Of a stretch of DNA of 64,000 nt, positions 874 through 19,893 are shown in pieces. Positions within the stretch are counted from its first letter, which is position 1; the number at the start of each line of letters is the position of its first letter. Location of the stretch: positions 248,001 to 312,000 of the forward strand of contig NC_015577.1 in assembly GCF_000214355.1 (NCBI RefSeq). The letters are read 5' to 3'. This stretch comes from Leadbettera azotonutricia ZAS-9 (GTDB lineage: Bacteria > Spirochaetota > Spirochaetia > Treponematales > Breznakiellaceae). The notes under the pieces were generated by a model. The model did not search any database. It was not told where the DNA came from and was given only the letters and a program-made list of their open reading frames with translations. A program made the translations under genes and the position numbers.

Positions 874-883
874 GGTGGATTGT

Positions 884-1402
884 ATGAAAAGAATATTTTT
901 GGCCATTATTGCATTCCTCATTTCGGGCGCTGTTTATTCCCAGGCAAATATTGCAATTAATGCGTACCAATTCAGCAGCAACCAGATTGCTATACAAATA
1001 AAGGTTGCCAACAATAATAGGAACGATATTTTAATCCCCGGCTACGCATCCCAAAAATGCGAGGTCATTAATAACACCTTGCATATAACCTTTTCTTACG
1101 ATCCCCGCACCTTGCCCGGGGATCCCGGATCATCGGGGTTTTCTCCTGGCTATGTTGTGCGGGCGGGAGAAATACTTAATTATTCAATATTCCTGGAGAG
1201 CAAAGCCATTGATGGGCTGAAATATTCGGTTATAGATGGTTTTAGTATTTATATGGGGATAATTGAAAAGCCCAATGACACTATAAACAGCAATAAATAT
1301 TCATTTTCTTTCGGCAGGAGCGAATTAAGGATGGTTGCCCTGGAGTGCGTATTGGATAAAACCCAGGTGCTTAATTACAGAAATATCGAAATGGGGTATT
1401 AA
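884..1402 (+). CDS. Small secreted protein of unknown function
   Basis: 172 residues. I chose the ATG at 884 because it follows AAGGTGG at a good distance and gives a clean signal peptide (MKRIFLAIIAFLISGAVYSQ, cleavage near SQA). The frame could open 30 bases earlier but that would bury the signal sequence and overlap the reductase. The mature part is rich in Asn, Ile and Tyr with alternating hydrophobic residues, suggesting a small beta-sandwich domain (for example NIAINAYQFSSNQIAIQIKV). No family recognised. It faces pyrC tail to tail with only 15 bases between stops and no obvious terminator there. Confidence 0.7.
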   Translation: MKRIFLAIIAFLISGAVYSQANIAINAYQFSSNQIAIQIKVANNNRNDILIPGYASQKCEVINNTLHITFSYDPRTLPGDPGSSGFSPGYVVRAGEILNYSIFLESKAIDGLKYSVIDGFSIYMGIIEKPNDTINSNKYSFSFGRSELRMVALECVLDKTQVLNYRNIEMGY

Positions 1403-1417
1403 AACAAAAACCCGGAT

Positions 1418-2695
1418 TTACAAAGAGCTGAATACTATCCGGCCTTTATGCAGGGTCATCAAAATTTCCCCCGGAAGTATGCATCCATTAAAAGGAGAGT
1501 TCTTCCCCCGCGATTTTGCCCTATCAGGATCCGCTTTCCACCGGCTCTCGGGATCAATGAGCACCAGGTCGCCTCTAAAGCCCTGGGCAAGGCGCCCGCG
1601 TCCCTCGGGCCCTTCATTGCCAAAACCAATCAGACGGGCCGGTTTTGCGCTCATAAGGGAAGAAAGCCTTTGAAGGCCAATCTCCCGGGTCTTGCATAGT
1701 TTTGCATAGCACACTGAAAAGGCGGTCTCCAAACCAGTAAAGCCCGGCGCCCCTTTTTCTTTGTCTGTGTCGGAGTGGGGGGCATGATCCGTGGCAATGG
1801 CGTCTATAGTGCCGTCAAGAAGGCCCTCGATTATTGCCTGCCGGTCAGCTTCGGTTCTGAGGGGAGGGTTCACCCTGCCCCAGGACTCATCGCCTAATGC
1901 GCGGGCATCTTCTTCGGTGAGCGCTATATGGTGGGGCATGGCCTCGCAGCTTATTCTAAAGGGCGGCTGGGGATTTTTTTTCGCTTCCCTGATCGCTTGA
2001 ACCGCTTCTTTGGTAGATACATGGGCAATATGGATATGGCAGCCTGCTTTCCGTCCCAGTTCGATGGCACGGCTTGTGGCATTGTTTTCGCCTTCAAAGT
2101 CGCAGTGGCAGGATATGGGGATACCCAGGCGGCGGGCTTCGTTCATTGCCTTCAAAAAGAGTTCGGGATCAGCCACATCCTTGCCGTCTTCGGAAAGCAT
2201 TCGGACAAAAGGACTGGGAAAATCAGCTTCCCTTAGATCGGCAATGCCCGACAATTCTTTCCCTTCCATATTTTTGGTAAGGGACATGACGGGGTAGAGA
2301 TCGACAAGGCCAAGGGCATCGGAGCGTTTTTTGAGGGCTCCTGCCTTTTCAATAGTGTCGATGACCGGCTTGGTATTTGCCATGCAAACGACAGTTCCAT
2401 AACCTCCGGCTGCGGCAGCCATGCTTGCAGATTCCAGCACCTCTTTATCAGGAAAACCGGGATCGCGGAAATGCGCATGGAGATCCACAAAAGCCGGCAT
2501 GATCAGCGCACCGCCGGGCAGATGATCGCCGTCAATGACGAGGGCTGATTTTGGGAACAATGGGAATGGGGTATCCTGTTTGGCATTTTCGGGGATCAGC
2601 GCAGCAATTGTTCCGTTAATGATAACGAGGGAGCCCCGCATATCGATTTCTTCATCGACAAGGCGGAAATTTTTAAGCAGAATTATTTTTTCCAT
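1418..2695 (-). CDS. pyrC: Dihydroorotase
   Basis: 425 residues, the usual length for a class I dihydroorotase. It catalyses reversible cyclisation of N-carbamoyl-aspartate to dihydroorotate in pyrimidine synthesis, in the cytosol. Visible amidohydrolase signatures in order: the metal-binding DLHAHFRDPG near residue 70, a His in HCDFEGE, HIAHVSTKEAV, CEAMPHHIALTEED, and the metal-binding Asp in AIATDHAPHS near residue 305. It is the last gene of pyrB-pyrI-pyrC. Its ATG lies 6 bases after the pyrI stop with no clear ribosome site, so translation is probably coupled. Identity is very secure. Confidence 0.95.
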   Translation of the reverse strand: MEKIILLKNFRLVDEEIDMRGSLVIINGTIAALIPENAKQDTPFPLFPKSALVIDGDHLPGGALIMPAFVDLHAHFRDPGFPDKEVLESASMAAAAGGYGTVVCMANTKPVIDTIEKAGALKKRSDALGLVDLYPVMSLTKNMEGKELSGIADLREADFPSPFVRMLSEDGKDVADPELFLKAMNEARRLGIPISCHCDFEGENNATSRAIELGRKAGCHIHIAHVSTKEAVQAIREAKKNPQPPFRISCEAMPHHIALTEEDARALGDESWGRVNPPLRTEADRQAIIEGLLDGTIDAIATDHAPHSDTDKEKGAPGFTGLETAFSVCYAKLCKTREIGLQRLSSLMSAKPARLIGFGNEGPEGRGRLAQGFRGDLVLIDPESRWKADPDRAKSRGKNSPFNGCILPGEILMTLHKGRIVFSSL

Positions 2696-2701
2696 TTATG
2701 C

Positions 2702-3148
2702 CTACTGGCCGGCATTCCTGAAATCGCCGGCTGAACGTATCTCGTCGCAATATTCGCAGCGGTACGTGCGCTCCCTGGAGTTCTCCAGATGGAAAATGTG
2801 GGGTATGTATTTTTCCGTGGAGGTGATGCAGCGGGGATTCTTGCAGTGAATGATGTTCTCCACTTTTTCCGGGAGCTTGAGCTTTATTTTTTCGGTGATC
2901 TTTTCGTTTTCGATGATGTTCACCGTGATGTTGGGATCTATAAGGCCCAGCACATCGAAATTAATTGCAATGGTGTTATCAATTTTGATAATATCCTTGC
3001 GTTCCATGTTGCGCGAGCTGGCGTTAACCACAAAGGCCACGGTGTATGGCGCTTTATCCAGACCCAGCCAGTTGAAAATGTGTATGCCCTGGCCTGCCTT
3101 GATGTGGTCTATGACAATTCCGTTCCGTATCTTGTCTATGTTAAGCAT
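2702..3148 (-). CDS. pyrI: Aspartate carbamoyltransferase regulatory subunit
   Basis: 148 residues, matching the PyrI family length. The N-terminal allosteric nucleotide-binding half begins MLNIDKIRNGIVIDHI. The C-terminal zinc domain keeps four cysteines: C102 and C107 (HCKNPRC) and C131 and C134 (CEYC), which bind the zinc that holds regulatory to catalytic chains. PyrI lets CTP or ATP tune the catalytic trimer. It lies between pyrB (12-base gap) and pyrC (6-base gap), with AAGGAGGA 8 bases before the ATG. The presence of PyrI implies an allosteric, class B type ATCase holoenzyme. Confidence 0.95.
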   Translation of the reverse strand: MLNIDKIRNGIVIDHIKAGQGIHIFNWLGLDKAPYTVAFVVNASSRNMERKDIIKIDNTIAINFDVLGLIDPNITVNIIENEKITEKIKLKLPEKVENIIHCKNPRCITSTEKYIPHIFHLENSRERTYRCEYCDEIRSAGDFRNAGQ

Positions 3149-3160
3149 TTTTATTCCTCC

Positions 3161-4084
3161 TTACACTGCGCCTAAAATCGATGAGAGCAGGGCCATGCGC
3201 ACAAACATGCCGAATTTGGCCTGCTTAAAATACGCCGCCCTTGGATCGGCGTCAACTTCCAGGGCTATTTCGTTTACCCTGGGCAGGGGGTGGAGTATCA
3301 TCATGTCCTTTTTGGCTGGCTCCATTCTTTCGGGCGTTAGTATGTAACTGTCTTTGAGGCGTATGTAATCTTCCTCGTTGAAGAAGCGTTCACGCTGAAC
3401 ACGGGTCATGTAAAGTATATCGAGGCTTTCCATCACCTTGTCGAGGCTGTCGGTTTCGGTGAAGGGGATCTTCTTCTCTGCCAGTATTCCGGTTTTAAGG
3501 TAATTGGGGATAGTGAGTTCCGACGGGGACACGAAAACCATGCGTATGCCCGGATAGCGGGCCAGGGCTTTGACCAGGGAATGGACAGTGCGGCCGAATT
3601 TGAGATCCCCGCAGAAACCAACGGTAAGGTTTTTAATATCCCCCCTGAGGCGTTTAATGGTGAGGAGATCGGTGAGGGTCTGGGTAGGGTGATGATGCCC
3701 GCCGTCGCCTGCGTTTATCACAGGTACGTCGGAATACCGGGAAGCCAGGAGGGCTGCGCCTTCCTTGGGGTTGCGCATGACAATAGCATCGGCGTAGCAG
3801 GCCACGGTACGCACCGTGTCGGCCAGGCACTCGCCCTTGGAAGCCGAGGAGGAGCCGGGTTCGGCAAAACCCAGGCAGCTTCCGCCCAGCCTCAGCATAG
3901 CGGCCTCGAAGGAGAGCCGCGTCCTGGTGCTGGGTTCAAAAAAGAGGGTCGCCAGGATATTCCCCCTACAGCACTCTTTGTACTCGGCGGGCTTTGCCTC
4001 GATTCTTTCCGCCAGCTCGAAAAGCCCTTCCATCTCTTCCACTGAAAAATTCAGCGGCTCAATCAAACTTCGCCCTTTTACCAT
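3161..4084 (-). CDS. pyrB: Aspartate carbamoyltransferase catalytic subunit
   Basis: About 307 residues. It joins carbamoyl phosphate and aspartate, the committed step of pyrimidine synthesis. Diagnostic segments: the carbamoyl-phosphate loop [27 protein letters not shown], the aspartate-side loop and HPLPRVNEI near the C-terminus. I prefer the ATG at 4084 ([10 protein letters not shown]), which sits just after a purine-rich GGGGGAGGG. A GTG at 4105 is in frame, but would place the start inside the end of the terminator just upstream. First gene of pyrB-pyrI-pyrC, with a leader-peptide attenuator arrangement in front (see that entry). Confidence 0.95.
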
Positions 4085-4105
4085 ACCCTCCCCCTGAATT
4101 TGCAC

Positions 4106-4133
4106 AAAAAAAACCGCCCTAAAAGGCGGTTTT
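4106..4133 (-). terminator. Intrinsic terminator just before pyrB; probable attenuator
   Basis: Read on the minus strand: a perfect 9-bp stem (AAAACCGCC / GGCGGTTTT) with a 6-nt loop, running directly into an eight-T tract, ending about 20 bases before the pyrB start. As drawn it would stop transcription before pyrB unless relieved. It could instead simply end the upstream small gene, but the position of a short reading frame that stops exactly on its 5' stem favours attenuation. Confidence 0.8.
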
Positions 4134-4171
4134 CAGAAATCTATACTTTTAAAAAGGCAGTCATACTTCAT
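4133..4171 (-). CDS. Putative 12-residue pyrB leader peptide
   Basis: ATG at 4171 to TGA at 4135-4133 encodes MKYDCLFKSIDF. The stop codon overlaps the first base of the terminator stem, so a ribosome finishing this peptide would cover the stem and prevent the terminator from folding. A run of five U lies mid-frame (CTT TTT), where polymerase could pause when UTP is scarce. This is the architecture known for the enterobacterial pyrBI leader (longer there). No Shine-Dalgarno is evident; the ATG coincides with the predicted transcription start. Translation is an inference. Confidence 0.5.
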   Translation of the reverse strand: MKYDCLFKSIDF

Positions 4172-4177
4172 AAGTCC

Positions 4178-4206
4178 ATGCTATCATATTCCGGGCACAT
4201 GCGCAA
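4178..4206 (-). promoter_or_regulatory. Candidate pyrBIC promoter
   Basis: Minus strand: TTGCGC (4206-4201), a 17-base spacer, then TAGCAT (4183-4178) preceded by TGA, an extended -10 pattern. The expected start is at or within a base of the leader-peptide ATG at 4171. The -35 match is only fair. The same TGN plus -10 plus 6-9 bases plus ATG layout occurs at several other genes here. Confidence 0.4.
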
Positions 4207-4209
4207 GTG

Positions 4210-4494
4210 CTAAAGATCCTCTATATTGCCGCCCGCGATCTTTTTCACATAAAAATCCAGGGCTGTAAGCCGTATCCCCCCGCTTGAGGCGTTGGACTTG
4301 CCTTCCTTTATAGCGGCCATGACGGATTGGAGATTTTCGGTGAGACGCTTGCCTTCCTTCATACCCAATTCACCGGCGGAGGCGTTCAGTTTACTCAATT
4401 TGTCCAGAATTCCCTGATCTATTGTTTCAAAGCCCGATGAAGAAAGGCCCGATACTATGGTTTCCAGTTCCGTTCGTAACTCTTCTACAGTCAT
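4210..4494 (-). CDS. Small conserved-looking protein of unknown function
   Basis: 94 residues, largely helical and charged (MTVEELRTELETIVSGLSSSG; later LTENLQSVMAAIKEG), with no signal peptide or membrane segment, so probably cytosolic. Start is supported by a strong AGGAGGAG 5 bases before the ATG. I do not recognise a family. It lies on the same strand as the pyr operon, about 40 bases before its candidate promoter, and the pyr terminator could also serve this gene. Confidence 0.6.
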   Translation of the reverse strand: MTVEELRTELETIVSGLSSSGFETIDQGILDKLSKLNASAGELGMKEGKRLTENLQSVMAAIKEGKSNASSGGIRLTALDFYVKKIAGGNIEDL

Positions 4495-4626
4495 GAACTC
4501 CTCCTAACCGGAATATTCTACTTCTTTTTCATGGAAAAATGAATAGGGAACCGGTTGAAATTCATATAAATTTGAAAAATCTTCATATAACAGTTTCATA
4601 GCACCGAGTGAAAGGCTAATCCGGAA

Positions 4627-5481
4627 TTATTCTTTGATCGAACCAGCGGTGAGTCCTTCTACGAGATATCTTTGCAGGAAAACCAGAATGAGCACCACGG
4701 GCAGGGCCACCAGGACCGATGCGGCCATCATGCCCCCCCAGTCATGCTTGAATTCGCCGCCAAAGGCCATGATCATACCGGGAGGCAGGGTTTTCATGGA
4801 AATATCCGTGGTCAGGGTCATGGGGAAAAGCAGGTTGTTCCAGGCATCCAGAAAAGAAAACACCCCGGTTGCGATTATCCCCGGTACAAGCAGGGGTATC
4901 AGAATTTGCCGCAATATGCCCATCCGGGTACAGCCGTCGATAATGGCAGCCTCGTCCAGTTCCTGGGGGATGGTATCGGCAAAGCTTTTCAGCATCCAGA
5001 TACAAAAAGGCAGGGTAAAGGCGGTAAAGGCAAGCACCAGGCCCTGGTAGGTATTTATCAGATGTATCCTGAAATACAGGATATACAGGGGGGTCAGGAG
5101 GACAACCAGGGGAAACATCTGGGTAACAAGAACCCCAATCATGACCCCCTTGCGGAATGCGAATTTGAGCCGCGACAGGGCATAGCTTGCCAGGAGGGCG
5201 GCGATAATGGCGATTATGACCGTAGCAAGGGCGACAATCCCGCTGTTCAGAAAAAAGCGGCTGATGGGCGTATAGCCTACAGTCCCGGTGGCGATTCTCT
5301 GGTAGCCCGCCGCGGATGGTTCCTTTGGGATAATTTCCGGGGGGTTGGCGTATACTGCGGTGGGGTTTTTAAAGCTGGTGCTGAGCATCCAAAAAACCGG
5401 GAACAGGGTCCAGCCTATTATGACAAGGGACGCAGCTCCCAGAAGAATATTCCAGCCTATGCTTCTTTTTCTTCGTACCAT
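4627..5481 (-). CDS. Sugar ABC transporter permease, MalG/UgpE type
   Basis: 284 residues, six predicted membrane helices beginning NILLGAASLVIIGWTLFPVFW. It carries the EAA loop that docks to the ATPase: DEAAIIDGCTRMGILRQILIP near residue 190. The C-terminal tail LVEGLTAGSIKE is typical of inner-membrane components of carbohydrate importers (CUT1). Last gene of the operon that begins with the binding protein at 10661; 13 bases after the partner permease, with GGAAGG before its ATG. Substrate unknown. Confidence 0.9.
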   Translation of the reverse strand: MVRRKRSIGWNILLGAASLVIIGWTLFPVFWMLSTSFKNPTAVYANPPEIIPKEPSAAGYQRIATGTVGYTPISRFFLNSGIVALATVIIAIIAALLASYALSRLKFAFRKGVMIGVLVTQMFPLVVLLTPLYILYFRIHLINTYQGLVLAFTAFTLPFCIWMLKSFADTIPQELDEAAIIDGCTRMGILRQILIPLLVPGIIATGVFSFLDAWNNLLFPMTLTTDISMKTLPPGMIMAFGGEFKHDWGGMMAASVLVALPVVLILVFLQRYLVEGLTAGSIKE

Positions 5482-5494
5482 ACCGGCCTTCCTT

Positions 5495-6403
5495 TCAGTA
5501 ATCTTTGTTTAAGAGGCGTATATATATCACCGACAGGATCATCAATATGATGACCCAGAATATGCCGATGAGGGACGCATAGCCCATATCAAATTGATCA
5601 AAAGCGACCTTGTAAATATACAGCACCGATGTAGTGGTAGCATGGGCAGGGCCGCCTCCGGTCATGGTAAAGATAATGGGGAAATTATTGAAATTACGGA
5701 TAATCTGCAGCAGGGAAGTAATGACCACCACCCCTTTAATGTGGGGCAGTGTTACCTGGAAGAATTCATTCCAGCGGCTTGTGCCTTCTGCGTAGGCGGC
5801 CTCCCGTATGCTTTCGGGGATACCCTTCATTGCGGCGGTAAACATCAGCATATAAAAGGGCGCTTGGTTCCAGACATTGGCAATTATGACAGACGCCATG
5901 GCGAGGTTGTCCCGCATAAGCCAGGGCAGGCGTTTCTGGATAAGCCCAAGGCTGAGAAAAATATAATTCACAATTCCTACATTGGTGTCAAAGATATACA
6001 TAAAAAGATAGCCCACCACTATGCCGGGAATTACCCAGGGCATTATAAGAACCCCCCGGAGTTTGCTGAACCGTTTCGGCAATTCCTCCAGCACAAGGGC
6101 CATAACCATCCCCAGGATGAGCCCTGCGGCAACGGTAATTACCGTAAAGATCAGGGTGTTCAGCAGGGACCGGAAAAACAGTTCATCCTGCAGCAGTTTG
6201 CGGATATTATTCAGCGGGGCAAAGCGGATTTTATCGGGCCGGGTAAGCTGGTAGTTAAACAGGGAAAGATACACAGAATAGATCAGGGGATACAGTGAAA
6301 TAATTCCAACAAATAAAATCGAAGGCCCGAGCAGCGCGGCGGCGAGTTTATTGTTGGTATCAATTCTATAACTGTTATAAAGTTTTCTTTTGAACAGGAA
6401 CAT
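5495..6403 (-). CDS. Sugar ABC transporter permease, MalF/UgpA type
   Basis: 302 residues with six membrane helices; the EAA loop reads IREAAYAEGTSRWNEFFQVTLPHI. The conserved GGGPAHATTTSVLYIYKVAF segment near residue 255 is typical of MalF-like partners of CUT1 importers. AAAGAGGA precedes the ATG. It pairs with the MalG-type protein downstream and with the ATPase encoded 11 bases upstream. Confidence 0.9.
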   Translation of the reverse strand: MFLFKRKLYNSYRIDTNNKLAAALLGPSILFVGIISLYPLIYSVYLSLFNYQLTRPDKIRFAPLNNIRKLLQDELFFRSLLNTLIFTVITVAAGLILGMVMALVLEELPKRFSKLRGVLIMPWVIPGIVVGYLFMYIFDTNVGIVNYIFLSLGLIQKRLPWLMRDNLAMASVIIANVWNQAPFYMLMFTAAMKGIPESIREAAYAEGTSRWNEFFQVTLPHIKGVVVITSLLQIIRNFNNFPIIFTMTGGGPAHATTTSVLYIYKVAFDQFDMGYASLIGIFWVIILMILSVIYIRLLNKDY

Positions 6404-6414
6404 AAATCCTCTTT

Positions 6415-7557
6415 TTACAACAGTATGTTTTTTTCTGTATCCGGATCGAAGAGGAACAATCTGCTTATATCAGGCAAAAGTCCAATAGTTTTTTTCTCCC
6501 TGTATTGCAACGCCGAAGGGATCCGGGAAATAACATTTTTATCTTCGATTCTGGCATTGAGGTAGGTGTCGGCGCCCATCATTTCGGCCAATTCCAGTTC
6601 CGCTTGGAGCATTTCGGAGGGGAAAACCACAGGCGCCCCGGTATCAGGGTCCGCTTCGCCTTCAAGCATGAATTCAGGATGCAGATCTTCCGGCCGTATG
6701 CCGGCAATAACATTTTTTCCACTATATTTCTCCAGCACGCTGCGGGGAAATCTCGCTGTCGGGAGGGGATAAAAGACAGTGTAAATCTTTACCCCGTATT
6801 CTCCGTTTTTATCCGTAATGATCCCCGGAAGCATATTCATGGGCGGTGAACCGATGAATCCTGCAACGAACAGGTTGCAGGGGTTATTATACAGCTTCCG
6901 GGGAGTGTCAACCTGCTGTATGATTCCTGATTTCATGACCACTATACGGTCCCCCATGGTCATGGCTTCTATCTGATCATGGGTTACATAAATAAAAGTG
7001 GTTCCCAGTTTTTTATGCAGTTTGGAAATTTCAGAACGCATGGTTGTCCGCAATTTGGCGTCAAGATTGGAAAGGGGTTCATCCAGAAGAAATACTGCGG
7101 GGTCCCGGACTATGGCCCTGCCGAGGGCTACCCGCTGGCGTTCACCGCCGGAAAGGGCCTTGGGTTTCCTGTCCAGGAGCTGGGTAATCCCGAGGATACG
7201 GGCGGCATTTTCCACCTTTTGCTTTATTTCATCCTTGGGAACCTTCTGCTGTATCAAGCCAAAGGCAATATTCCTGTAAACCGTCATGTGGGGGAAAAGG
7301 GCATAATTCTGGAATACCATTGCGATATTCCTGTCCTTCGGTTCAAGTTGGTTAACCAGCTTGCCGCCGATGTATATTTCGCCCTGGTTTATTTCCTCCA
7401 GTCCGGCGATCATCCGTATGGTGGTTGATTTCCCGCAGCCTGAGGGTCCGACAAAAATAATAAATTCCTTATCCTGAATTTCAAGATTGAAATTGTTTAC
7501 CGCTATAATATCCCCAGGGTAAGTTTTGCCGACATTTTTCAGGGTAATTGCAGCCAT
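6415..7557 (-). CDS. ABC transporter ATPase, MsmK/UgpC type
   Basis: 380 residues. Walker A GPSGCGKST near residue 38, Q-loop VFQNYALFPHM, signature LSGGERQRVALGRA, Walker B VFLLDEPLSNLDAK and the switch His in YVTHDQ are all intact. A C-terminal regulatory OB-like domain follows (after residue 240), as in MalK/MsmK/UgpC. The ATG lies one base after the stop of the preceding gene (TGACATG), so translation is coupled. This is the only importer ATPase gene in the window; the two other importer clusters lack one, so it may energise several systems, as MsmK-like ATPases do elsewhere. Confidence 0.93.
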   Translation of the reverse strand: MAAITLKNVGKTYPGDIIAVNNFNLEIQDKEFIIFVGPSGCGKSTTIRMIAGLEEINQGEIYIGGKLVNQLEPKDRNIAMVFQNYALFPHMTVYRNIAFGLIQQKVPKDEIKQKVENAARILGITQLLDRKPKALSGGERQRVALGRAIVRDPAVFLLDEPLSNLDAKLRTTMRSEISKLHKKLGTTFIYVTHDQIEAMTMGDRIVVMKSGIIQQVDTPRKLYNNPCNLFVAGFIGSPPMNMLPGIITDKNGEYGVKIYTVFYPLPTARFPRSVLEKYSGKNVIAGIRPEDLHPEFMLEGEADPDTGAPVVFPSEMLQAELELAEMMGADTYLNARIEDKNVISRIPSALQYREKKTIGLLPDISRLFLFDPDTEKNILL

Positions 7558-7558
7558 G

Positions 7559-8035
7559 TCAGTTTGACTCTTTCAGGTATTTATCCAAATGCCCGATCAG
7601 GGGATAGTTTTCATTATGCTCATGCAGCCGTTTTTTAAAGGTGTTTTCCCTGATTTTTTCCGGGGCGATTATCCAAATAGCGGCCAAATCCCCCTCGTTC
7701 CCGAGACTTTCCAATACTTTGACATAGGCTTCTTCAAATTCGTCCCCGCATATCAGGGTACGGATCGGCTTTCCGATGATCTCAAAACTTGTTTTGTCTT
7801 CGCCGATTATATTGATCGACACAGGGCGGTTAAACCAAAGGCTGTAGGTGAGGTTTTTATAGCTAAGGGAGCTTTCTATTATTTCATTGAAGCGGATATT
7901 TCCATCCTGATCCACCGTCATGGAACCTTTAAAAACCGTGTGGGGCGTCCCGTCCTCGCCAACGGTGGAAAGGACTTTTCTGCTGGCCTGATCCGCAAAC
8001 AGGGATCTGACCTTATCGTCCAGTATTATCGGCAT
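7559..8035 (-). CDS. Pyridoxamine-phosphate-oxidase-like FMN-binding split-barrel protein
   Basis: 158 residues. The N-terminal pattern (KVLSTVGEDGTPHTVFKGSMTVDQDGNIRF, read as separate strands) fits the PNPOx-like split beta-barrel fold, whose members often bind FMN, F420 or haem. No membrane segment; cytosolic. Its ATG overlaps the end of the radical SAM gene by 10 bases with AGGGAGG inside that gene, and the ATPase follows after one base, so its expression is locked to the radical SAM enzyme and the importer. It may reduce or bind a cofactor or a product of the radical SAM step; that is inference. Confidence 0.7.
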   Translation of the reverse strand: MPIILDDKVRSLFADQASRKVLSTVGEDGTPHTVFKGSMTVDQDGNIRFNEIIESSLSYKNLTYSLWFNRPVSINIIGEDKTSFEIIGKPIRTLICGDEFEEAYVKVLESLGNEGDLAAIWIIAPEKIRENTFKKRLHEHNENYPLIGHLDKYLKESN

Positions 8036-9318
8036 TCTTTTCCTCCCTGCCAGATCCGGGCAAGATCCCCGCTTGGATGATTGCCGCAGGTACGGTAGTC
8101 ATCGCAGAGACATTCCAGATTATAACGCCGGGATATTTGATCTATCCCCTTTGCAAAGGCGGTTAAATAATCCAGTGTTGCGGTTTTTTTATGCTGGAAA
8201 ACAGAGCCCTGTTCCAGATGGTATATCTGCTGGGATACGGTTACCCCGTGCTTGGCCAAGTCTTCAGCTTCGGCCAGGCATTTTTCCAGGGCTTCTTCTT
8301 CGCTTTTGAAGCCCTGGGGTTCTACCATTTCTACCCCGGAAACAACCCCGGTACTGACACTGCCGGGGCCGAAAATTTCGGCAGCTTTAAAAAGCCGTTC
8401 CTTCCAACCCTGGTATCCGATATATTTGGCTTTTCCCGGACACACCCAGTTGAATACTTCTTCGTTCAATACTTCCAGATCCGCGGTGTAGCCGCAGAGC
8501 ATGGTTTCGTTGTGCAGGCGCCTCAATTGCTTTTCCGTGAATGCTGTAGCAACAATCTGGGACATGACTTTTTTATCCCTGAAATATTTCCCCACCCGCT
8601 GAAGCATTTCTATATAAAGATTGACCTCGTCATCCTGGGGCTCCGCGCCTCCGAGCATTGAACCGGAACAGAAAAATACCGACCTGTACCTGCCAGGCTG
8701 CTTGAGGGCCTCCACTACCGCTTCTTCAACATCGTCGAGGTTGACGATTTCGGCTTTCTCGCCTTTCGTTGAATTAAAGGTAGTCCCTGCCACGCAGTAT
8801 TTACAGTTCATCCCTGCCAGTTTCCAAAAATCGCAGGTCTGGTACAGGTTGATATCCATGCGCTGGGGACGTGACATGAGGACATGCCACATCGGCGTTC
8901 CCCTGGTGGTAACCTTGTTGGTAAAATGCGGATTAGGCAAATAGTAAATTTCGTCAATAAATTCGCCCTGATCCGTTAGTGCCGGACGGCCGTTTACTAG
9001 ATCAATGGTATAGGGTTCACGGAATCTTTTAAATGAAGTTTCCGCCTCGTCCTCAATGGTACAGAGGACGCTGGTACCGTCCCGGAGCAGAAAACCGTAG
9101 GGGATGACCCCTTTGCTTTCCAGGTTTATGCCTCGGTAAAAAGCAGCGTCCTTCTCAGGATTAATTGCATCCAATGCCCGCCGGGTTATCTTTGCCCCCC
9201 GGCGCTGGACATCAATTTTAAGAATGATAAAGGGAGACAAGTCCGAATACTTTTCCTTTACCGCCTGGAGGCTCAATTCCTGTTCCCGCCAGGGCGGGGA
9301 TATATTTTCTCCGGACAT
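8026..9318 (-). CDS. Radical SAM protein with C-x9-C-x2-C cluster motif
   Basis: 430 residues. The N-terminal 140 residues are a separate domain; then the radical SAM barrel begins with C162, C172 and C175, spaced C-x9-C-x2-C rather than the usual C-x3-C-x2-C, followed by barrel features FFCSGSMLGGAE and CGYTADLEVLNEEVF resembling the biotin-synthase/HydE-like branch. Four cysteines at the C-terminus (C403, C405, C411, C429) could bind an auxiliary cluster. Start supported by AAGGAGAC. It sits second in the importer operon, 32 bases after the binding protein, and overlaps the split-barrel gene. The reaction is unknown; an enzyme acting on the imported compound is the simplest reading. Confidence 0.75.
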   Translation of the reverse strand: MSGENISPPWREQELSLQAVKEKYSDLSPFIILKIDVQRRGAKITRRALDAINPEKDAAFYRGINLESKGVIPYGFLLRDGTSVLCTIEDEAETSFKRFREPYTIDLVNGRPALTDQGEFIDEIYYLPNPHFTNKVTTRGTPMWHVLMSRPQRMDINLYQTCDFWKLAGMNCKYCVAGTTFNSTKGEKAEIVNLDDVEEAVVEALKQPGRYRSVFFCSGSMLGGAEPQDDEVNLYIEMLQRVGKYFRDKKVMSQIVATAFTEKQLRRLHNETMLCGYTADLEVLNEEVFNWVCPGKAKYIGYQGWKERLFKAAEIFGPGSVSTGVVSGVEMVEPQGFKSEEEALEKCLAEAEDLAKHGVTVSQQIYHLEQGSVFQHKKTATLDYLTAFAKGIDQISRRYNLECLCDDYRTCGNHPSGDLARIWQGGKECR

Positions 9319-9331
9319 TTGTTCTGTCTCC

Positions 9332-9348
9332 TTTTTTGAAACTGGCTC
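9332..9348. repeat. Single arm of a dispersed inverted-repeat family
   Basis: TTTTTTGAAACTGGCTC matches the right arm of the perfect hairpin at 39257-39293 (16 of 17 bases in register, extra T). Here no opposite arm is present. It lies in the 32-base gap after a binding-protein gene, the same kind of site as the full copy. Confidence 0.55.
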
Positions 9349-9350
9349 AG

Positions 9351-10661
9351 TTATTTAAACAGGGCCTCAAGTTTTTTCTGCCCGTCGTCCAGGATCGGCT
9401 GTATTGCCGCATCGGTGGTTATTACCTGCTGCACTGCGGTCATGATGATTTCCGCATAGCTTGCATAATCAGGGCCTGTGGGCATTGGAACACTGGTCGG
9501 CACTACATCGCTGATAAATGATTTGATAAAGCCGCTTTCGGAGAAGGCAGGGGCCTTCGAAAAAGCGCTCTGGGTAGCGGGGGTAAAGCCCGAGGCAGCG
9601 ATATATTTGTTCAAAGAATCGGGGCTTGCCGCCAGGAATTCCAGGAAAGAGGCGGTCTCTTTTTGCACCTTCGAATTCCTGAAAATCACCAGGGCGTGGG
9701 CCTGCACCGGGGTACGGGCTTTACCGTCGCTTCCTGCGGGCAAAGCGGTTGCCCCCCAGGTCTCGTAAAGTATCGCCGGAGTAAGCTGGGGATTCAGGGA
9801 ACGGAGAATTCCGTCAAAGGTGGTCCAGTCGTTTCCGAAGAGGAGCTTGTCCTGGGCAGCATAAGGCCGGAATTCCCCATACTTCAGGCCGGGCAGGGTG
9901 TATTCTTCTTTAACCAGCCAGCGGAGCCATTCCAGGTAAGCTTTTATCCCGGGGGTATTGAAATGCACTTCACCTTTCAGGTTATAGGGTTCCACGCCAT
10001 TGTTAAAGGCAAGCAGGAAAGGCCATTGGTGAATGAGCCCCAGGGTGCGTACTGTGGTATCAACCTGAAGGAAGAGGGTACCCGCAGGCAGCTTCGGCTT
10101 TGCGGCTCTCAGGATGGCATTCAATTCATCGATTGTTTTGGGCGGCTTGTTGGGATCCAGCCCGGCCTGGGCCAATAGCTTTTTGTTGTAGAACAGCCCG
10201 TGGGTACTGTTCGCCCAAGGCGCCGCATAATGCTTCCCGTCGATAAGGCCGGTAGCATCGTACAGATCCGGGTAGAGATCCTTTTTGAAGTCGGCGCTCA
10301 ATAAATCGTCCAGAGGGATCAATAAATTTGCCGATTGGAGCTGGCGGACATTGTCGCTGGATAACTGTGCAATGTCAGGCGGATTGCCCGCAGTGGACCG
10401 GATGGTGATTTCCTTGACAATGTCCGAGACAGGGATGCCCTGGACATCTATCTTCAGATCCGGGTGGGCCTGCTCGAAGGCTGTTATAACCGCCGCAATA
10501 CGGGATTGGGTAGCTTCTTCCACCGACGCCCAGTTTGCGAAGGATATGGTTTTTACTCCCCCATCCGACGCCTTGGCCCCCCCTGCATGCAAAAAGCCGG
10601 GAAGAACCAGAAAAACCGCTAAAAACGCACTGAAAAACCAGATTGAACTGAGCTTTTTCAT
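9351..10661 (-). CDS. Extracellular solute-binding protein of a sugar-type ABC importer
   Basis: 436 residues with a signal peptide (MKKLSSIWFFSAFLAVFLVL, cleavage near HAGG) and family 1 binding-protein features: TISFANWASVEEAT at the mature N-terminus, FEQAHPDLKIDVQGIP, and APWANSTHGLFYNKKLLAQAGLDPNKPPKT. It captures the solute outside the inner membrane and delivers it to the two permeases. First gene of the six-gene operon; AGGAGG precedes the ATG. Ligand cannot be told from sequence. Confidence 0.92.
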   Translation of the reverse strand: MKKLSSIWFFSAFLAVFLVLPGFLHAGGAKASDGGVKTISFANWASVEEATQSRIAAVITAFEQAHPDLKIDVQGIPVSDIVKEITIRSTAGNPPDIAQLSSDNVRQLQSANLLIPLDDLLSADFKKDLYPDLYDATGLIDGKHYAAPWANSTHGLFYNKKLLAQAGLDPNKPPKTIDELNAILRAAKPKLPAGTLFLQVDTTVRTLGLIHQWPFLLAFNNGVEPYNLKGEVHFNTPGIKAYLEWLRWLVKEEYTLPGLKYGEFRPYAAQDKLLFGNDWTTFDGILRSLNPQLTPAILYETWGATALPAGSDGKARTPVQAHALVIFRNSKVQKETASFLEFLAASPDSLNKYIAASGFTPATQSAFSKAPAFSESGFIKSFISDVVPTSVPMPTGPDYASYAEIIMTAVQQVITTDAAIQPILDDGQKKLEALFK

Positions 10662-10685
10662 ACTAAAAACCTCCTATTTAATTCC

Positions 10686-10707
10686 TAGTATAGATATTGG
10701 TATACTA
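10686..10707. promoter_or_regulatory. Inverted repeat, candidate operator upstream of the importer operon
   Basis: TAGTATA, 8-base spacer, TATACTA: perfect 7-bp arms located 25-46 bases before the binding-protein ATG. The size fits a dimeric regulator, but none is encoded next door. It may also contain -10-like elements. Confidence 0.4.
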
Positions 10708-10786
10708 TGATAAAATAGACGCAATTTTTAATGTTGTCAAGCCCTTCGGTTTTTTTTGCACCATGCATTAGCAGGCAAGCCGATTT

Positions 10787-11077
10787 ATGGCAATGTCGGG
10801 GGAATCCCCCGGCAAAATGAAGTTTGTCGGTCACATTCCAGGGGATAATAGTTTGATGGTGGTTCTCCATGTGGAAATGGAGGATACGGATAGGGTCAGG
10901 ATTATCTCGGCTTCTTATTCAGATGAGGTCTACTATGTGAAAAAGTATACTTCCCATGTTAAGGTTACTCAAAAGCTGGATACCATAAGAAACCAGCGGC
11001 AGGGTGTTATTTATTCGGTTCGTCCGGTCTCGGAGCTGATTGCTTCAGTTCCTGACTTTGCTTTTACCTCTAAGTAA
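10787..11077 (+). CDS. Short protein resembling the C-terminal half of a BrnT-like toxin; possible remnant
   Basis: 96 residues, no recognisable ribosome site and a stop codon just upstream in frame. The segment NSLMVVLHVEMEDTDRVRIIS matches the look of the last strands of BrnT-type RelE-fold toxins (VVVxxxxDRIRIISAR), but the N-terminal half of that family is missing and the C-terminal 40 residues do not fit. No antitoxin follows. It could be a decayed toxin, a small relative, or a chance frame. Confidence 0.35.
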   Translation: MAMSGESPGKMKFVGHIPGDNSLMVVLHVEMEDTDRVRIISASYSDEVYYVKKYTSHVKVTQKLDTIRNQRQGVIYSVRPVSELIASVPDFAFTSK

Positions 11078-11096
11078 CTTCATGACACAGGGGTTA

Positions 11097-11130
11097 TAAA
11101 AGAAAAGCCCGGTCTATTGCTAAACCGGGC
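11097..11130 (-). terminator. Intrinsic terminator after the beta-helix lipoprotein
   Basis: On the minus strand GCCCGGT, 10-base loop, ACCGGGC, then TTTTCTTTT: a 7-bp GC-rich stem with a T-rich tail starting 28 bases after the stop of the lipoprotein gene. Confidence 0.75.
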
Positions 11131-11157
11131 CAATGTCAATCTATTGCGCCCGGCGTC

Positions 11158-13098
11158 TTAATGGGCGGGGCCTGTTGTTCCCCCGGTCAGGGTGTCATTA
11201 GTGTATAAGCTCCAGTCCTGGTCGCCTGCAATAATCGGGGAAGTACCATCGCCATACCATGCATATGTAAAAGCTTTATAGAGGGAAGCACCTCTAGCAG
11301 CGGTATTTTTGACCTTTTCTGCTTCGCCGGAACCGTAAATAGTTCCTCCCGCCATGATAAACGTACCGTAACTTATAAACACGCCGCCGCCGTCACCAGT
11401 AATAGCGGTGTTGCCGCTGATTGCACTATTACCGTTCATGGTAAACCTACCGGAAGCTGATCCATATACGATACCTCCACCAATGGTATGAGCAGTGTTG
11501 CCGCTGATGGCGCTATTGTCGTTCATGGTAATAGACGTACCGGAACCTGATCCAAGCACATACACGCCGCCGCCGCTACTGGTTTGGGTGGTATTGCCGG
11601 TAATGGCGCTATTGTCGTTCATGGTGAACGTGCTGGAACCTGACACATATACACCGCCGCCGCTGAAATAGGCAGTGTTACCGCTGATGACGCTATTGCC
11701 GCTCATGGTGAACGTACCGTTAGCTACATACACACCGCCGCCATAATTCGAGGCGGTGTTGCCGCTGATGATGCCACCATTCATGATGAACGTGCCCTGG
11801 GAATCAACATATACGCCGCCGCCACTGGCCCCGTAGACGCTGTTGATGACGGAATTGCCGCTAATGACGCCACCGTTCATGGTGAACGTGCCCCGGTCAA
11901 CATTCACACCACCGCCGTTGTTTTCGCTGCGGCAGCCGGTTATTTTCGATCCGGCGTTCATGGTAAACGCGGCGGTAGCAGAATTTATCATTACAACCGA
12001 ACCGTCAGTGCCATTATGGTTGAGTATAACATTGGTGTTCAGTGTAAGACTGCCCTCAGAAATAAAGAACATTTCGCCATTATCGAGAAAGGTAATGGTG
12101 CGTTCCATACCCACTCCTTCCAGGGTGATGTTATGCATGATACTGAATAGGCTCTGACCCCTATAAAGGCGGTAACTTTCATCGCTGTACAGGTAGATGG
12201 TGATGCCGGCAGGGGCGGTATAAATAAGATTGGCTGCGTTTATGCGGTGCAAAATATCAAATCCGCCGCTTATCGCTGCTGCCGCTTTTGCCCTTTCAAG
12301 GTCTGTTTTTGCTTTATTGATGCTCGCTATTGTTGCGCCTGGGGCTTCAAGAACAGCCTGGGCAGTAATGATGGCGCTGTCGTCGCCTGTGGTGAACAAG
12401 CCCACAGGTACGGTACCAGTATCCCCGACAAACTTAGCACCTACAGTATACCGCGTACCCTCTGTAAAGGTTGCCGCAGTTATAGCCGCTTGCAGTTCCG
12501 CTTTGGCGATGTCGAGGGTAGTGCCATTACCACCAGTGTCGCCATTACCGCCAGTGTTATCAGAATCATAGGCGGTAAGGTAATCATCCCAGATGCTGCT
12601 GCTCCAGGATTGGGGATCGCCGCTGGTAGGCAAATTCGCTCCATGGGCAGAGTTGTAATCTGTCACCAAGCTTTCCCAAAGTTCTTGCCCGTGGGCAGCG
12701 TTTCCGCTATAGGTAGTATATATACCTTCTAAAATATCTTTTTTTTCCGCATCTGTCGGCTCAGCGTTACCAGTGGGAAAATACGCATCAAAGTAGATGT
12801 CCCAGGTGGCGGCGCTCCATTCGTGGGGATTTGTTGTAGGTAAATTTATGCTATATAGCGAGTTCAAAGCAGCTACATAGCCGTTGGCCCATAGAGTCTC
12901 CCACAGGTTTCCAACTTCCGGAGCGGTTGACTTTAGCTGATCATACGTAGCTAATACGATGCCTTTTTTGCTTATTAGATCGTCGTCGAAGCCGCTTCCA
13001 CCAGCGATGCCTCCCCCCGCAGGGTTATCGCAAGACGCAAACGCTAAACTGAATGTCAGAACCAACGCCAGTATCCCTAAAAGTTTCGCCTTTTTCAT
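11158..13098 (-). CDS. Beta-helix repeat surface lipoprotein
   Basis: 646 residues. Lipoprotein signal MKKAKLLGILALVLTFSLAF followed by ASC, so C22-24 is the likely lipidated cysteine. Residues about 55-190 hold two copies of a WExLxxxY...W...WDxYxxAY unit. Residues about 195-270 are an Ala-rich helical FIVAR-like linker (AKAELQAAITAA). From about 300 to the end there are some ten degenerate repeats of GGGVYV-x(3-8)-GTFTMNG-x(4)-SGNT, the pattern of right-handed parallel beta-helix and polymorphic outer-membrane protein repeats. Probably displayed at the cell surface, for adhesion or glycan contact. AAGGAG precedes the ATG; the XRE regulator is divergent, so it may control this gene. Confidence 0.8.
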   Translation of the reverse strand: MKKAKLLGILALVLTFSLAFASCDNPAGGGIAGGSGFDDDLISKKGIVLATYDQLKSTAPEVGNLWETLWANGYVAALNSLYSINLPTTNPHEWSAATWDIYFDAYFPTGNAEPTDAEKKDILEGIYTTYSGNAAHGQELWESLVTDYNSAHGANLPTSGDPQSWSSSIWDDYLTAYDSDNTGGNGDTGGNGTTLDIAKAELQAAITAATFTEGTRYTVGAKFVGDTGTVPVGLFTTGDDSAIITAQAVLEAPGATIASINKAKTDLERAKAAAAISGGFDILHRINAANLIYTAPAGITIYLYSDESYRLYRGQSLFSIMHNITLEGVGMERTITFLDNGEMFFISEGSLTLNTNVILNHNGTDGSVVMINSATAAFTMNAGSKITGCRSENNGGGVNVDRGTFTMNGGVISGNSVINSVYGASGGGVYVDSQGTFIMNGGIISGNTASNYGGGVYVANGTFTMSGNSVISGNTAYFSGGGVYVSGSSTFTMNDNSAITGNTTQTSSGGGVYVLGSGSGTSITMNDNSAISGNTAHTIGGGIVYGSASGRFTMNGNSAISGNTAITGDGGGVFISYGTFIMAGGTIYGSGEAEKVKNTAARGASLYKAFTYAWYGDGTSPIIAGDQDWSLYTNDTLTGGTTGPAH

Positions 13099-13182
13099 AG
13101 AAGAGACTCCTTATTGATAGATCTATTAAATGGCCTATCTTTCATGCTAAAAGCAGATATTTAGATTAATATTACTAGATGT

Positions 13183-13211
13183 TTGTTAGACAGTCAAGCT
13201 AATAATATAAT
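13183..13211 (+). promoter_or_regulatory. Promoter of the XRE regulator
   Basis: TTGTTA, exactly 17 bases, TATAAT. The hexamer ends 9 bases before the ATG at 13221, so the mRNA would have almost no leader; no Shine-Dalgarno is present. Confidence 0.6.
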
Positions 13212-13220
13212 TTTCAATAT

Positions 13221-13583
13221 ATGCTACGAGATGGATCAGCGGTTGGGAATGAATTGCGTGCAATTTTAAGCTCGAATATAAAGCGGCATCGTAGCCGGCG
13301 GGGGTGGTCGCAGGCAAAACTAGCCGAAGAAGCCAATATTTCCACGAATTTTTTAAGCGATATAGAGACCGGCAAGAAGTGGCCTTATCCTGAAACCCTT
13401 ATGAACCTTGGCAAAGCGTTGAATGTCGAAGTGTATGAGCTTTTCAAGCCGGAAGAGGCTATACCAAACGATATCGGAGTAGTTCTGACCCGATATACCG
13501 AAGAAGCATCCCTAAAGTTGACTCAAATGGTCAGCAATTCCCTTGAAAGCCTTCGGAAAGAATACCTCACCGAAGGAGAATAA
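13221..13583 (+). CDS. XRE-family DNA-binding regulator
   Basis: 120 residues. A Cro/C1-type helix-turn-helix covers about residues 16-72: SSNIKRHRSRRGWSQAKLAEE, ISTNFLSDIETGKKWPYPET, LMNLGKALNVEVYELF. The C-terminal 45 residues are helical and may dimerise. It diverges from the beta-helix lipoprotein across a 122-base gap, suggesting autoregulation or control of that gene. The chosen ATG lies 9 bases after a good -10 hexamer. Confidence 0.85.
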   Translation: MLRDGSAVGNELRAILSSNIKRHRSRRGWSQAKLAEEANISTNFLSDIETGKKWPYPETLMNLGKALNVEVYELFKPEEAIPNDIGVVLTRYTEEASLKLTQMVSNSLESLRKEYLTEGE

Positions 13584-13621
13584 AGTTTAGCGGCAGCCTT
13601 TCATTATAAAATATGCAAATC

Positions 13622-14980
13622 CTATACAAAAGCATCGCCCTTCTGACCTGTGGGGAGCTTCGCCGAATTTTCCGCCGACTTTAGCTTGTCCATTAAGGCG
13701 GCGTTCCTGTCGTTGCCCCGGACGAGGCGTTTTGCCAGCAGCTTGGAAAGGAAGATGCCGTAATGGGGGAATTGGCGTATCACATTTACAAAAGCTTTAC
13801 GCGTAAGGAGTATGAGTTTCCCGGTGGTCTCGGCCCTGACGGTGGCGGAACGTTTTTGGTTCAGGAGGAAGGACATCTCGCCCATGAAGATGTCTTCGGG
13901 CGACAGGGTTCCTACCTGCTTGCGGTTGTGAAAAACCGTGTACCGGCCGGAGGAGATGTAGTAGAGGTAGTCCGAGGGCTCCCCCTCTTTAAGGATGATG
14001 TCGCCGGGTTTGACATTGACAATCTGCTCTTTGGAAAAGCCCAAGGGCACATCGTATTCCAGGGAAAGGTCGTGCTTGACGGTCAAGGTTACCTGGTTGC
14101 CTTTGGCGTTGTAGCTGAGTTCGTTGGAAAGTTTGGAGGCAAGCTTGATGCCCCTGCCATGAAGGCTCATAATGTCCTGGTTTTCGATTTTTTGGAGGTG
14201 GGCCTTCACGTCAAAGCCCTTGCCCTCGTCTTTGATGATGAAAATGCTCTTGTCGTTGAGGAGTTCCCACTGGAATTCGACTTTCTTGCCCCTGATGGCA
14301 GGGTCTTTGCATTTTTCCGCCACCAGATCCACTACCGAGAGGCCCTTCTCCATGCCTTCGGTTTTTTCATCGTAACCGATGCCGCAGTTTCCGTGCTCCA
14401 CCGCATTGACAATGAGTTCGCCCAGGGCAAGCTGGAGGTGCATCTTGTTGTCCGGGTCGATAAGGCCCCGCTGGGAGAGGAGGGTGGCGCCCATGCCGGC
14501 GTAAAGGGGCACTGCCAAAAGGTCGTTCTCTATGAGGAAACTGCCCGAAGCGCCGTCCATGAGGTTTTTGGTGAATTCCCGGGCAAAGATAATTTGATAG
14601 TTGCGCGCGATAATCTGCACATTTTTGACAATGTGGGAGCGTATGCGGCTATACTCCATCAGGGTAAGGATGTTTACGGCCTTGTACTTTTCGAGGAGCT
14701 TTTCTTCGTTGTTCTTTTCCTGGGAAAAGACGCCTATGATGCCGAAGTTCATGAGCCACTTGTCGTCTTTCATCCAGGAGATTATTTCGTCTATCTTTAT
14801 GGAAGGATCGGAAAAATTGATGATCACCACTTCCGGGAGGTCATAGCTCATAAATTCGAGGATTTCGATCTTTTCGGTGAGGTGCCTGAGCGAAAAATCC
14901 CCCTGGCCTTCGTTCCTGAACGCGAATTCCACGAGTTTCTTGACTGCCAAATCTGAATTGACCACCCCTAAAACGGCCAT
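13622..14980 (-). CDS. Signalling protein: receiver-like, HATPase and cyclic-nucleotide-binding domains
   Basis: 452 residues. Residues 1-125 look like a response-regulator receiver (MAVLGVVNSDLAVKKLVEFA; LPEVVIINFSD; GIIGVFSQ) but with degenerate phospho-site surroundings. Residues about 170-310 are a GHKL ATPase of the anti-sigma or serine-kinase type, with N-box LGELIVNAVEHGN, DEGKGFD and HGRGIKLASKLS. Residues about 315-430 are a cNMP-binding roll (VKPGDIILKEGEPSDYLYYI, GEMSFLLNQKRSATVRA). No membrane helix; cytosolic. It may read a cyclic nucleotide and control a sigma-factor pathway; partner not visible. GGAGTG precedes the ATG; divergent from the two-component genes. Confidence 0.8.
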   Translation of the reverse strand: MAVLGVVNSDLAVKKLVEFAFRNEGQGDFSLRHLTEKIEILEFMSYDLPEVVIINFSDPSIKIDEIISWMKDDKWLMNFGIIGVFSQEKNNEEKLLEKYKAVNILTLMEYSRIRSHIVKNVQIIARNYQIIFAREFTKNLMDGASGSFLIENDLLAVPLYAGMGATLLSQRGLIDPDNKMHLQLALGELIVNAVEHGNCGIGYDEKTEGMEKGLSVVDLVAEKCKDPAIRGKKVEFQWELLNDKSIFIIKDEGKGFDVKAHLQKIENQDIMSLHGRGIKLASKLSNELSYNAKGNQVTLTVKHDLSLEYDVPLGFSKEQIVNVKPGDIILKEGEPSDYLYYISSGRYTVFHNRKQVGTLSPEDIFMGEMSFLLNQKRSATVRAETTGKLILLTRKAFVNVIRQFPHYGIFLSKLLAKRLVRGNDRNAALMDKLKSAENSAKLPTGQKGDAFV

Positions 14981-15019
14981 AACACTCCTATCGCGATTAT
15001 ACTCCCTTTACAAAGCCCC

Positions 15020-15038
15020 CACAATTCCCTCACAATTC
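15020..15038 (+). promoter_or_regulatory. Direct repeat upstream of the response regulator, candidate autoregulatory box
   Basis: CACAATTC occurs at 15020-15027 and again at 15031-15038, an 11-base period. OmpR/PhoB-type regulators bind such 11-base direct repeats. The second repeat lies within CCTCACAAT, which recurs at 18046-18054 in front of the copper operon. Confidence 0.4.
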
Positions 15039-15049
15039 TTTCTGACTAT

Positions 15050-15754
15050 ATGGAAATGAACAGCAAGGTCTCTGTCCTTATTATCGACGATGAGGCGAAG
15101 ATCCGGGAACTTATTAAATCCTATCTCGAAATAAACGGCTATAGCGCCATTTGCGCCGCCGCAGGCCTTGAAGGACTGAATGCCTTCGAGAAATACAAGC
15201 CCTCCCTCATACTGCTGGATCTCATGCTGCCCGATATCACAGGCGAAGAATGCTGCCGCAGAATCAGGGAAGTTTCGGCAGTGCCTATCATCATGCTGAC
15301 TGCCAAAGTCGACGAGGAGAGCATAATCCGGGGTCTTAAAACCGGCGCCGATGATTATGTGTGCAAGCCCTTCAGCCCAAGGCAGCTTGTTGCCCGGGTT
15401 GAAGCGGCCCTGAGAAGGACTGCCAGGACCGGCTCTTCCGGCGCCCCCCTTGCCTGGGGCGATTTGGTTGTGGACCAGGCAAAACGCCAGGCGCTGTTCA
15501 AGGGGACGGAAATAGCATTGACCCGGGACGAGTACTTCATTTTGACCCTCCTTATGTCGAGGCCGGCAAAGATATTCACCAGGGAAGAAATTTTGCAGAA
15601 CGTAAAGGGCGATGAATACGAAGGTTTCGACAGGGCTGTGGATACGCACATCAAAAACCTCAGGGCAAAACTTGGGGATGATCCCCGGAGCCCAAAATAC
15701 ATAATCACAGTATACGGCATGGGGTACCGCTTCGGCGCGGGCGAGGCAGGATGA
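15050..15754 (+). CDS. OmpR-family response regulator
   Basis: 234 residues. Receiver domain with acidic pocket DDE (residues 13-15), phospho-acceptor D57 in LLDLMLPD, T84 and K106 (VCKPF). Winged-helix DNA-binding domain from about 135, ending HIKNLRAKLGDDPRSPKYII and YGMGYRF. The start may be M1 or M3 (15056); no strong ribosome site. The kinase gene overlaps its stop by four bases, so they are a cognate pair. Target genes are not certain. Confidence 0.93.
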   Translation: MEMNSKVSVLIIDDEAKIRELIKSYLEINGYSAICAAAGLEGLNAFEKYKPSLILLDLMLPDITGEECCRRIREVSAVPIIMLTAKVDEESIIRGLKTGADDYVCKPFSPRQLVARVEAALRRTARTGSSGAPLAWGDLVVDQAKRQALFKGTEIALTRDEYFILTLLMSRPAKIFTREEILQNVKGDEYEGFDRAVDTHIKNLRAKLGDDPRSPKYIITVYGMGYRFGAGEAG

Positions 15755-17010: not shown

Positions 17011-17030
17011 CTGCCCTGCCTTTGTTCGGG

Positions 17031-17948: not shown

Positions 17949-18045
17949 TATGATACTCCTTTGGTATTCAGCTTCTTGCTTGCAGTATACCCTAAAAACA
18001 CATTTTTTTCATAAAAACACCACAAAATATTTTTCCCCATGAAAT

Positions 18046-18062
18046 CCTCACAATGTTATAAT
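18046..18062 (+). promoter_or_regulatory. Copper-operon promoter core with CCTCACAAT motif
   Basis: TGT-TATAAT (extended -10, hexamer 18057-18062) lies 14 bases before the ATG at 18077. Directly upstream is CCTCACAAT (18046-18054), identical to nine bases in front of the response-regulator gene. No good -35 at 17 bases, consistent with an activator-dependent or extended -10 promoter. Confidence 0.5.
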
Positions 18063-18076
18063 AAAATTAAGAAGAA

Positions 18077-19864: not shown

Positions 19865-19876
19865 GTGAAATGCACT

Positions 19877-19893
19877 CGGGGTATTAAACCCCG
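19877..19893 (+). other. Intercistronic hairpin in the copper operon
   Basis: CGGGGT, loop ATTAA, ACCCCG, 13 bases after the first stop and 30 before the next ATG. No T-tract directly behind it, so an mRNA stability or processing element is more likely than a terminator. Confidence 0.45.

Follow-up and report, generated by a model that had tools for sequence, protein, structure and literature searches.

A conserved pair of radical SAM and split-barrel proteins in solute-importer operons: a candidate oxygen-independent module for sulfur release from organosulfur compounds

Introduction

The genome of Leadbettera azotonutricia ZAS-9 (3,855,671 bases) carries, inside an operon for a solute importer, the genes for a radical SAM enzyme and a small split-barrel protein, raising the question of what two such enzymes might do for an uptake system. 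The window, meaning the whole 64,000-nucleotide stretch that was analyzed, spans contig positions 248001 to 312000. A first-pass annotation of its sequence coupled import to a radical reaction that would act on the solute, and held that the substrate of neither enzyme could be told. Here, we examine the operon, its two enzymes, and the neighborhoods of their orthologues.

Results

Operon layout

The operon comprises six genes, all on the minus strand between 4627 and 10661, and thus extends past the interval first singled out (7559 to 10661). It begins with the solute-binding lipoprotein of a CUT1 (carbohydrate-type) ABC importer (9351 to 10661; PF01547, 108.8 bits; PF13416, 107.5 bits), followed by a variant radical SAM enzyme of 430 amino acids (8026 to 9318) and a PNPOx-like, probably flavin-binding split-barrel partner of 158 amino acids (7559 to 8035). 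The remaining genes encode the UgpC/MalK-type ATPase of the importer (6415 to 7557; NCBIfam NF008653, 460.9 bits against a cut-off of 432) and its permeases A (5495 to 6403; PF00528, 69.6 bits) and B (4627 to 5481; PF00528, 62.8 bits). Successive gaps of 32, -10, 1, 11, and 13 bases, exactly as first reported, separate these genes, the negative value being the 10-base overlap of the split-barrel and radical SAM genes.

The region upstream (10686 to 10745) contains a promoter-like pair, TTGACA-N17-TATTTT, with a perfect palindrome, TAGTATA-N8-TATACTA (10686 to 10707), just downstream of it; GGAATTAA is also present, between these elements and the operon. The palindrome is a possible operator and may be a repressor site. 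It occurs as a single exact copy in the whole genome, and its near-matches are not enriched there (14, versus 23 in a reversed control), leading us to reject a shared regulator site. No Rfam elements were found in the window, and no sulfur genes lie near the operon. Elsewhere in the window, positions 18077 to 19864 encode a protein that has a multi-span membrane region and what looks like a metal-binding domain, and a similar gene fragment lies near the orthologous pair at another locus (L069, 18985 to 19998).

The radical SAM protein

NCBIfam NF045502 (variant_rSAM) is the sole family model that the radical SAM protein passes, with 127.3 bits against a cut-off of 125, while two orthologues score 216.5 and 169.6; the model names a domain without a function and also covers paralogues that have no split-barrel partner. 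The protein falls below the cut-off of PF04055 (24.1 versus 29.5 bits; a paralogue in the same genome scores 33.8), which is why a Pfam radical SAM scan of its own genome listed 27 other places and missed it. Sequence searches gave no solved relatives. An AlphaFold2 model of moderate confidence (pLDDT 67.8, pTM 0.74, weakest at the cysteine loop and toward the C-terminus) has the TIM-barrel fold, partial or full, of the radical SAM superfamily, matching lipoyl synthase (Z 17.2 over 238 residues), biotin synthase (Z 15.4), HydE (Z 15.2), and NifB (Z 14.3).

Cysteines are found at residues 86, 162, 172, 175, 217, 275, 293, 347, 403, 405, 411, and 429, and C162, C172, C175, C293, and C411 are invariant in all 38 orthologues. 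The first three are predicted to hold a [4Fe-4S] cluster, and a GVVSGVE stretch near residue 330 matches the superfamily's SAM-binding motif, GxIxGxxE. The four cysteines noted earlier as a C-terminal group (C403, C405, C411, and C429) are all present, but C403, C405, and C429 vary, and with C411 alone conserved we rejected a functional C-terminal cluster.

The C162-x9-C172-x2-C175 arrangement had been read correctly, and its departure from the canonical C-x3-C-x2-C spacing is real but is not peculiar to this gene. In 35 of the 38 orthologues the spacing is C-x8-C-x2-C, with C-x9-C-x2-C confined to the three proteins of the window clade, and x8 or x9 also appears in some 45 more distant relatives. 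Judged from these alignments, the widened spacing is a trait of the whole superfamily of relatives, a known variant rather than a novelty of the window gene. The same distribution rules out a sequencing error, which had been raised as a possible origin of the spacing. A separate and widespread family of variant radical SAM proteins of about 440 amino acids, with the motif CQYFGKxEECxxC, is encoded at loci L010 to L037 of the same phylum, and no split-barrel partner was seen in the loci read.

The split-barrel protein

The model of the partner protein (pLDDT 77.3) adopts a split-barrel fold, and among solved structures it comes nearest to split barrels that bind FMN, F420, or haem, including HupZ (Z 14.0), an FMN-binding protein (Z 11.6), and an F420 reductase (Z 11.3). 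By sequence, the window protein lies below the PF01243 cut-off (15.1 versus 28.1 bits), which an orthologue (L091) passes with 29.9. In some operons one split-barrel copy serves two or three radical SAM copies, suggesting a general partner of several radical SAM enzymes. This arrangement and the flavin/F420/haem-type fold matches make a redox or cofactor role plausible.

Pairing and gene neighborhoods of the orthologues

Scanning one genome collection gave three loci, and orthologues were then collected by profile searches at E below 1e-130. At this threshold, orthologues were present in 3 of 395 genomes of a phylum with a Geobacteraceae bacterium, 19 of 141 genomes of that bacterium's order, and 5 of 398 genomes of the phylum of a Clostridiales homologue. 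More remote paralogues, at E of about 1e-40 to 1e-80, are common, and we excluded them from the orthologue set; the search for plasmid-borne relatives gave one weak match. As a background for the gene content of 33 orthologous loci, each no longer than 20 kb, we took 40 stretches of 19.9 kb picked at random from five of these genomes.

All 33 orthologous loci, but none of the 40 random stretches, contain a split-barrel gene. This gene is directly adjacent to the radical SAM gene, on the same strand and in either order, for 35 of the 38 radical SAM copies; the remaining three are tandem copies within the same operon. The bacteria that carry the pair are unrelated anaerobes. Such near-invariable pairing rules out chance adjacency. 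The two genes form a real conserved module that is apparently undescribed, as we found no published account of the pair in the openly licensed full-text literature. An importer is encoded in 32 of the 33 loci, the exception being a 3.9-kb contig, so that the proposed link between the enzymes and import holds and the pair does not occur mainly away from transport genes.

The types of importer and the neighboring genes in these loci indicate what may be imported. A NitT/TauT-type importer (the sulfonate/taurine SsuABC/TauABC type) occurs in 29 of the 33 loci versus 1 of 40 random stretches (Fisher p 6e-15), and at least one core sulfur gene lies within about 10 kb in 20 of 33 versus 4 of 40 (p 5e-6), both p-values being overstated because about 20 of the 33 loci come from one order and are not independent. 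The other three complete loci have CUT1 importers. Of 11 binding proteins from relatives, 7 pass the cut-off of the "aliphatic sulfonate" SsuA model TIGR01728; the window binding protein is of the CUT1 type and does not pass it. Among individual genes, metK is found in 11 of 33 loci versus 1 of 40 random stretches, metY in 7 of 33 versus 0 of 40, and nitrogenase-like genes in 11 of 33 versus 1 of 40. The identities of metK, cysK, cysE, OAH sulfhydrylase, and sulfite reductase were checked against NCBIfam and Pfam, and one sulfur-gene cluster with the module carries an S-box SAM riboswitch. Clustering of all neighbors without preset queries placed importer parts, the split barrel, NflH, metK, metY, and cysK among the commonest families, although the proximity of metK could reflect mere SAM supply.

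Beyond the main order, the module has sulfur genes next to it in G1101, G926/G1134, G881, and G367, and no adjoining sulfur genes were found in G908, G602, G259, G010, or the three CUT1 loci. Locus by locus, there is no sulfur gene in those of the two closest relatives of the window protein (L006 and L007), of the Treponema-family orthologues L075 and L076, or of L070. Taken together, the orthologue context points to organosulfur compounds as the substrate, and the earlier statement that it could not be told was too weak. For the window copy, a sulfur role would follow by homology.

Other genes accompany the module at some loci. A B12-binding radical SAM protein recurs beside it in several genomes (L067, 12135 to 13499; L071; L083 to L087). 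At L074 (G339, 9235 to 14032), genes for an AAT-type acyltransferase, an AMP ligase, and 2-oxoacid oxidoreductase subunits lie between two module copies, which suggests the breakdown of an acylated or aromatic organosulfur compound.

Joint duplication of enzymes and binding proteins

Loci L068 and L099 each have two or three copies of the radical SAM gene, interspersed with genes for binding proteins and served by one permease/ATPase set and one split barrel; L068 has a further separate set. Within the paralogue family, NMT1-type binding proteins alternate with three variant radical SAM genes, with one ATPase and one permease (L078 of G259, 8038 to 17622), and two arylsulfotransferase-like genes follow the array. 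Because binding-protein and radical SAM genes have been duplicated together, each enzyme seems to act on the solute that its binding protein delivers, as this arrangement suggests.

The ZAS-9 genome itself encodes a radical SAM paralogue in a sulfur cluster (L079, G000:C1:634000-653999), with sulfate importer genes, cysD, cysN, a sulfite-reductase-like gene, metK, the variant radical SAM gene, an SsuA-like binding protein, a permease, and nitrogenase-like H, D, and K. Near-identical promoter regions (TTAAATACCTATGTAT...GATCGGAATTAT...) precede sulfur and peptide-importer genes at this locus and at L077, in two Treponema-family genomes, and are perhaps a shared sulfur regulator site.

An importer swap in the window clade

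In the tree, the window protein forms one fully supported clade with proteins from a Treponema MAG (L006) and a Clostridiales Family XIII MAG (L007), both inferred from isolate names to be termite-gut bacteria. The clade is nested among proteins from operons with sulfonate-type importers; on the evidence of this tree, a sulfonate importer has been swapped for a carbohydrate-type one. All six window genes have counterparts in L007, which are 43-70% identical and arranged in a different order; the two binding proteins are 69% identical. The radical SAM protein of L006 is 83% identical to that of the window; its CUT1 importer is different, with permeases 26-30% identical and no ATPase in the locus, and a GH42 beta-galactosidase lies downstream. 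The comparison with L006 and L007 therefore makes the enzyme pair the constant element, around which the importer changes. The window binding protein has no match at E<=1e-60 in 200 same-family genomes except its own. Its nearest solved structures are generic sugar binders, and inferring the solute from these matches was rejected.

Discussion

We favor, with modest confidence, the reading that the pair makes up a previously undescribed module which frees sulfur from imported organosulfur solutes without the need for oxygen. The importer would bring in the organosulfur solute, and the radical SAM enzyme, with a [4Fe-4S] cluster on C162, C172, and C175 and with SAM, would generate a 5'-deoxyadenosyl radical. 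This radical may activate the solute so that a C-S bond breaks, and the split-barrel protein, probably with FMN, would supply electrons or handle the released product. Sulfite or sulfide would then enter cysteine or methionine synthesis, the presumed purpose in L. azotonutricia. The importer is of the sulfonate type in most relatives and of the carbohydrate type in the window clade. Because the pair stays constant while the importer changes, we propose a sugar-like organosulfur solute for the window operon, which, as the weakest step of this scheme, may be a sulfo- or thio-sugar.

The carbohydrate-family importer may also be taken at face value, with the pair modifying a carbohydrate in the window, or other imported solutes elsewhere, for carbon or nitrogen use or for cofactor making. 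The beta-galactosidase gene downstream in L006 fits this alternative, as does a remote similarity to the radical SAM family MSMEG_0568, a component of nitrilase (Nit1C) clusters. That similarity is, however, far below the cut-off of the family model TIGR04043 (24.7 versus 303.7 bits), and the unbiased neighbor clustering was dominated by sulfur genes and sulfonate-type importers, with no recurring nitrogen-assimilation family. We regard a non-sulfur purpose as fairly unlikely. The nitrogenase-like genes raise another question, as the pair might mature or support a nitrogenase-like enzyme, in the manner of NifB and MarB, rather than act on an imported solute. Such genes are near 11 of the 33 loci, and in the ZAS-9 genome the paralogue belongs to a cluster of metK, radical SAM, binding protein, permease, and NflHDK genes. 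Against this, 22 of the 33 loci have no nitrogenase-like gene nearby, among them the window, where none was found next to the radical SAM gene in positions 1 to 20000; the ever-present companion is the split barrel and not NflHDK; and binding proteins are co-duplicated with the enzyme. A maturation role thus seems decidedly unlikely.

The trio of radical SAM enzyme, split barrel, and importer is also that of anaerobic haem breakdown by HutW/ChuW radical SAM and HutZ split-barrel systems, and HupZ is among the best fold matches of the split-barrel model. Its sequence similarity to HupZ is marginal, however (E 0.0099), and the operons contain no haem-type importer or other haem gene, their importers being of the sulfonate or carbohydrate type; haem breakdown is very improbable. 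Sulfur release from organosulfur solutes, the preferred reading, might extend further, to a new class of oxygen-independent C-S-cleaving enzymes that combine a widened-motif radical SAM protein with an obligatory flavin split barrel across Spirochaetota, Bacillota, and the phylum that contains Geobacteraceae, and in which the choice of importer would set the organosulfur compound used. We put this forward tentatively, as somewhat less likely than not.

Sulfur uptake from sulfonates by strict anaerobes is only partly known, through IslAB, Xsc, and, since 2024, IsrBHDK (PMC11423573). If the proposal is true, a conserved radical SAM and split-barrel module linked to sulfonate importers would add another anaerobic sulfur route, and many genes annotated as "radical SAM protein" and "pyridoxamine oxidase family" would gain a testable function. 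It would also predict competition for sulfo-compounds among gut and subsurface bacteria through the exchange of importers around one catalytic core.

Among known systems, SsuEADCB for alkanesulfonates and Smo for sulfoquinovose carry out aerobic desulfonation with an FMNH2-dependent monooxygenase and O2. As is proposed for the present operon, they combine an importer, which in Smo is also of the CUT1 type, with a two-protein C-S-cleaving system that includes a flavin protein, but here a radical SAM enzyme takes the place of the monooxygenase, and none of the six operon proteins has an FMN-dependent monooxygenase domain of the SsuED/SmoAC kind. Oxygen-free, radical-based C-S cleavage of a sulfonate, as proposed here, is found in the isethionate lyase IslAB, in which a radical SAM activase serves the glycyl radical enzyme IslA (PMC6453916, PMC6386719); none of the six operon proteins is a glycyl radical enzyme. 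The methylthio-alkane reductase MarBHDK, too, acquires sulfur anaerobically by reducing C-S bonds and includes a radical SAM protein. That protein, MarB, is a different one, a NifB-like maturase with NifB motifs that is thought to build the MarDK metal cluster, and no split-barrel partner is reported (PMC12552129).

The closest functional precedent is anaerobic isethionate-sulfur assimilation by isrBHDK and ssuCAB in Rhodobacter capsulatus. Its radical SAM protein, IsrB, whose role was left open there, is reported to be closest to BciD and to work with nitrogenase-like HDK subunits (PMC11423573). IsrBHDK is reported without a split-barrel partner, whereas the constant partner here is the split barrel, HDK is optional, and the window importer is of the CUT1 type; the window operon is not a member of that system. 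Shared by the two, across the relatives of the window operon, are a radical SAM protein with an SsuABC-type importer, an anaerobic setting, and a known or, here, proposed role in sulfur assimilation, with neighbors such as serine acetyltransferase and rhodanese.
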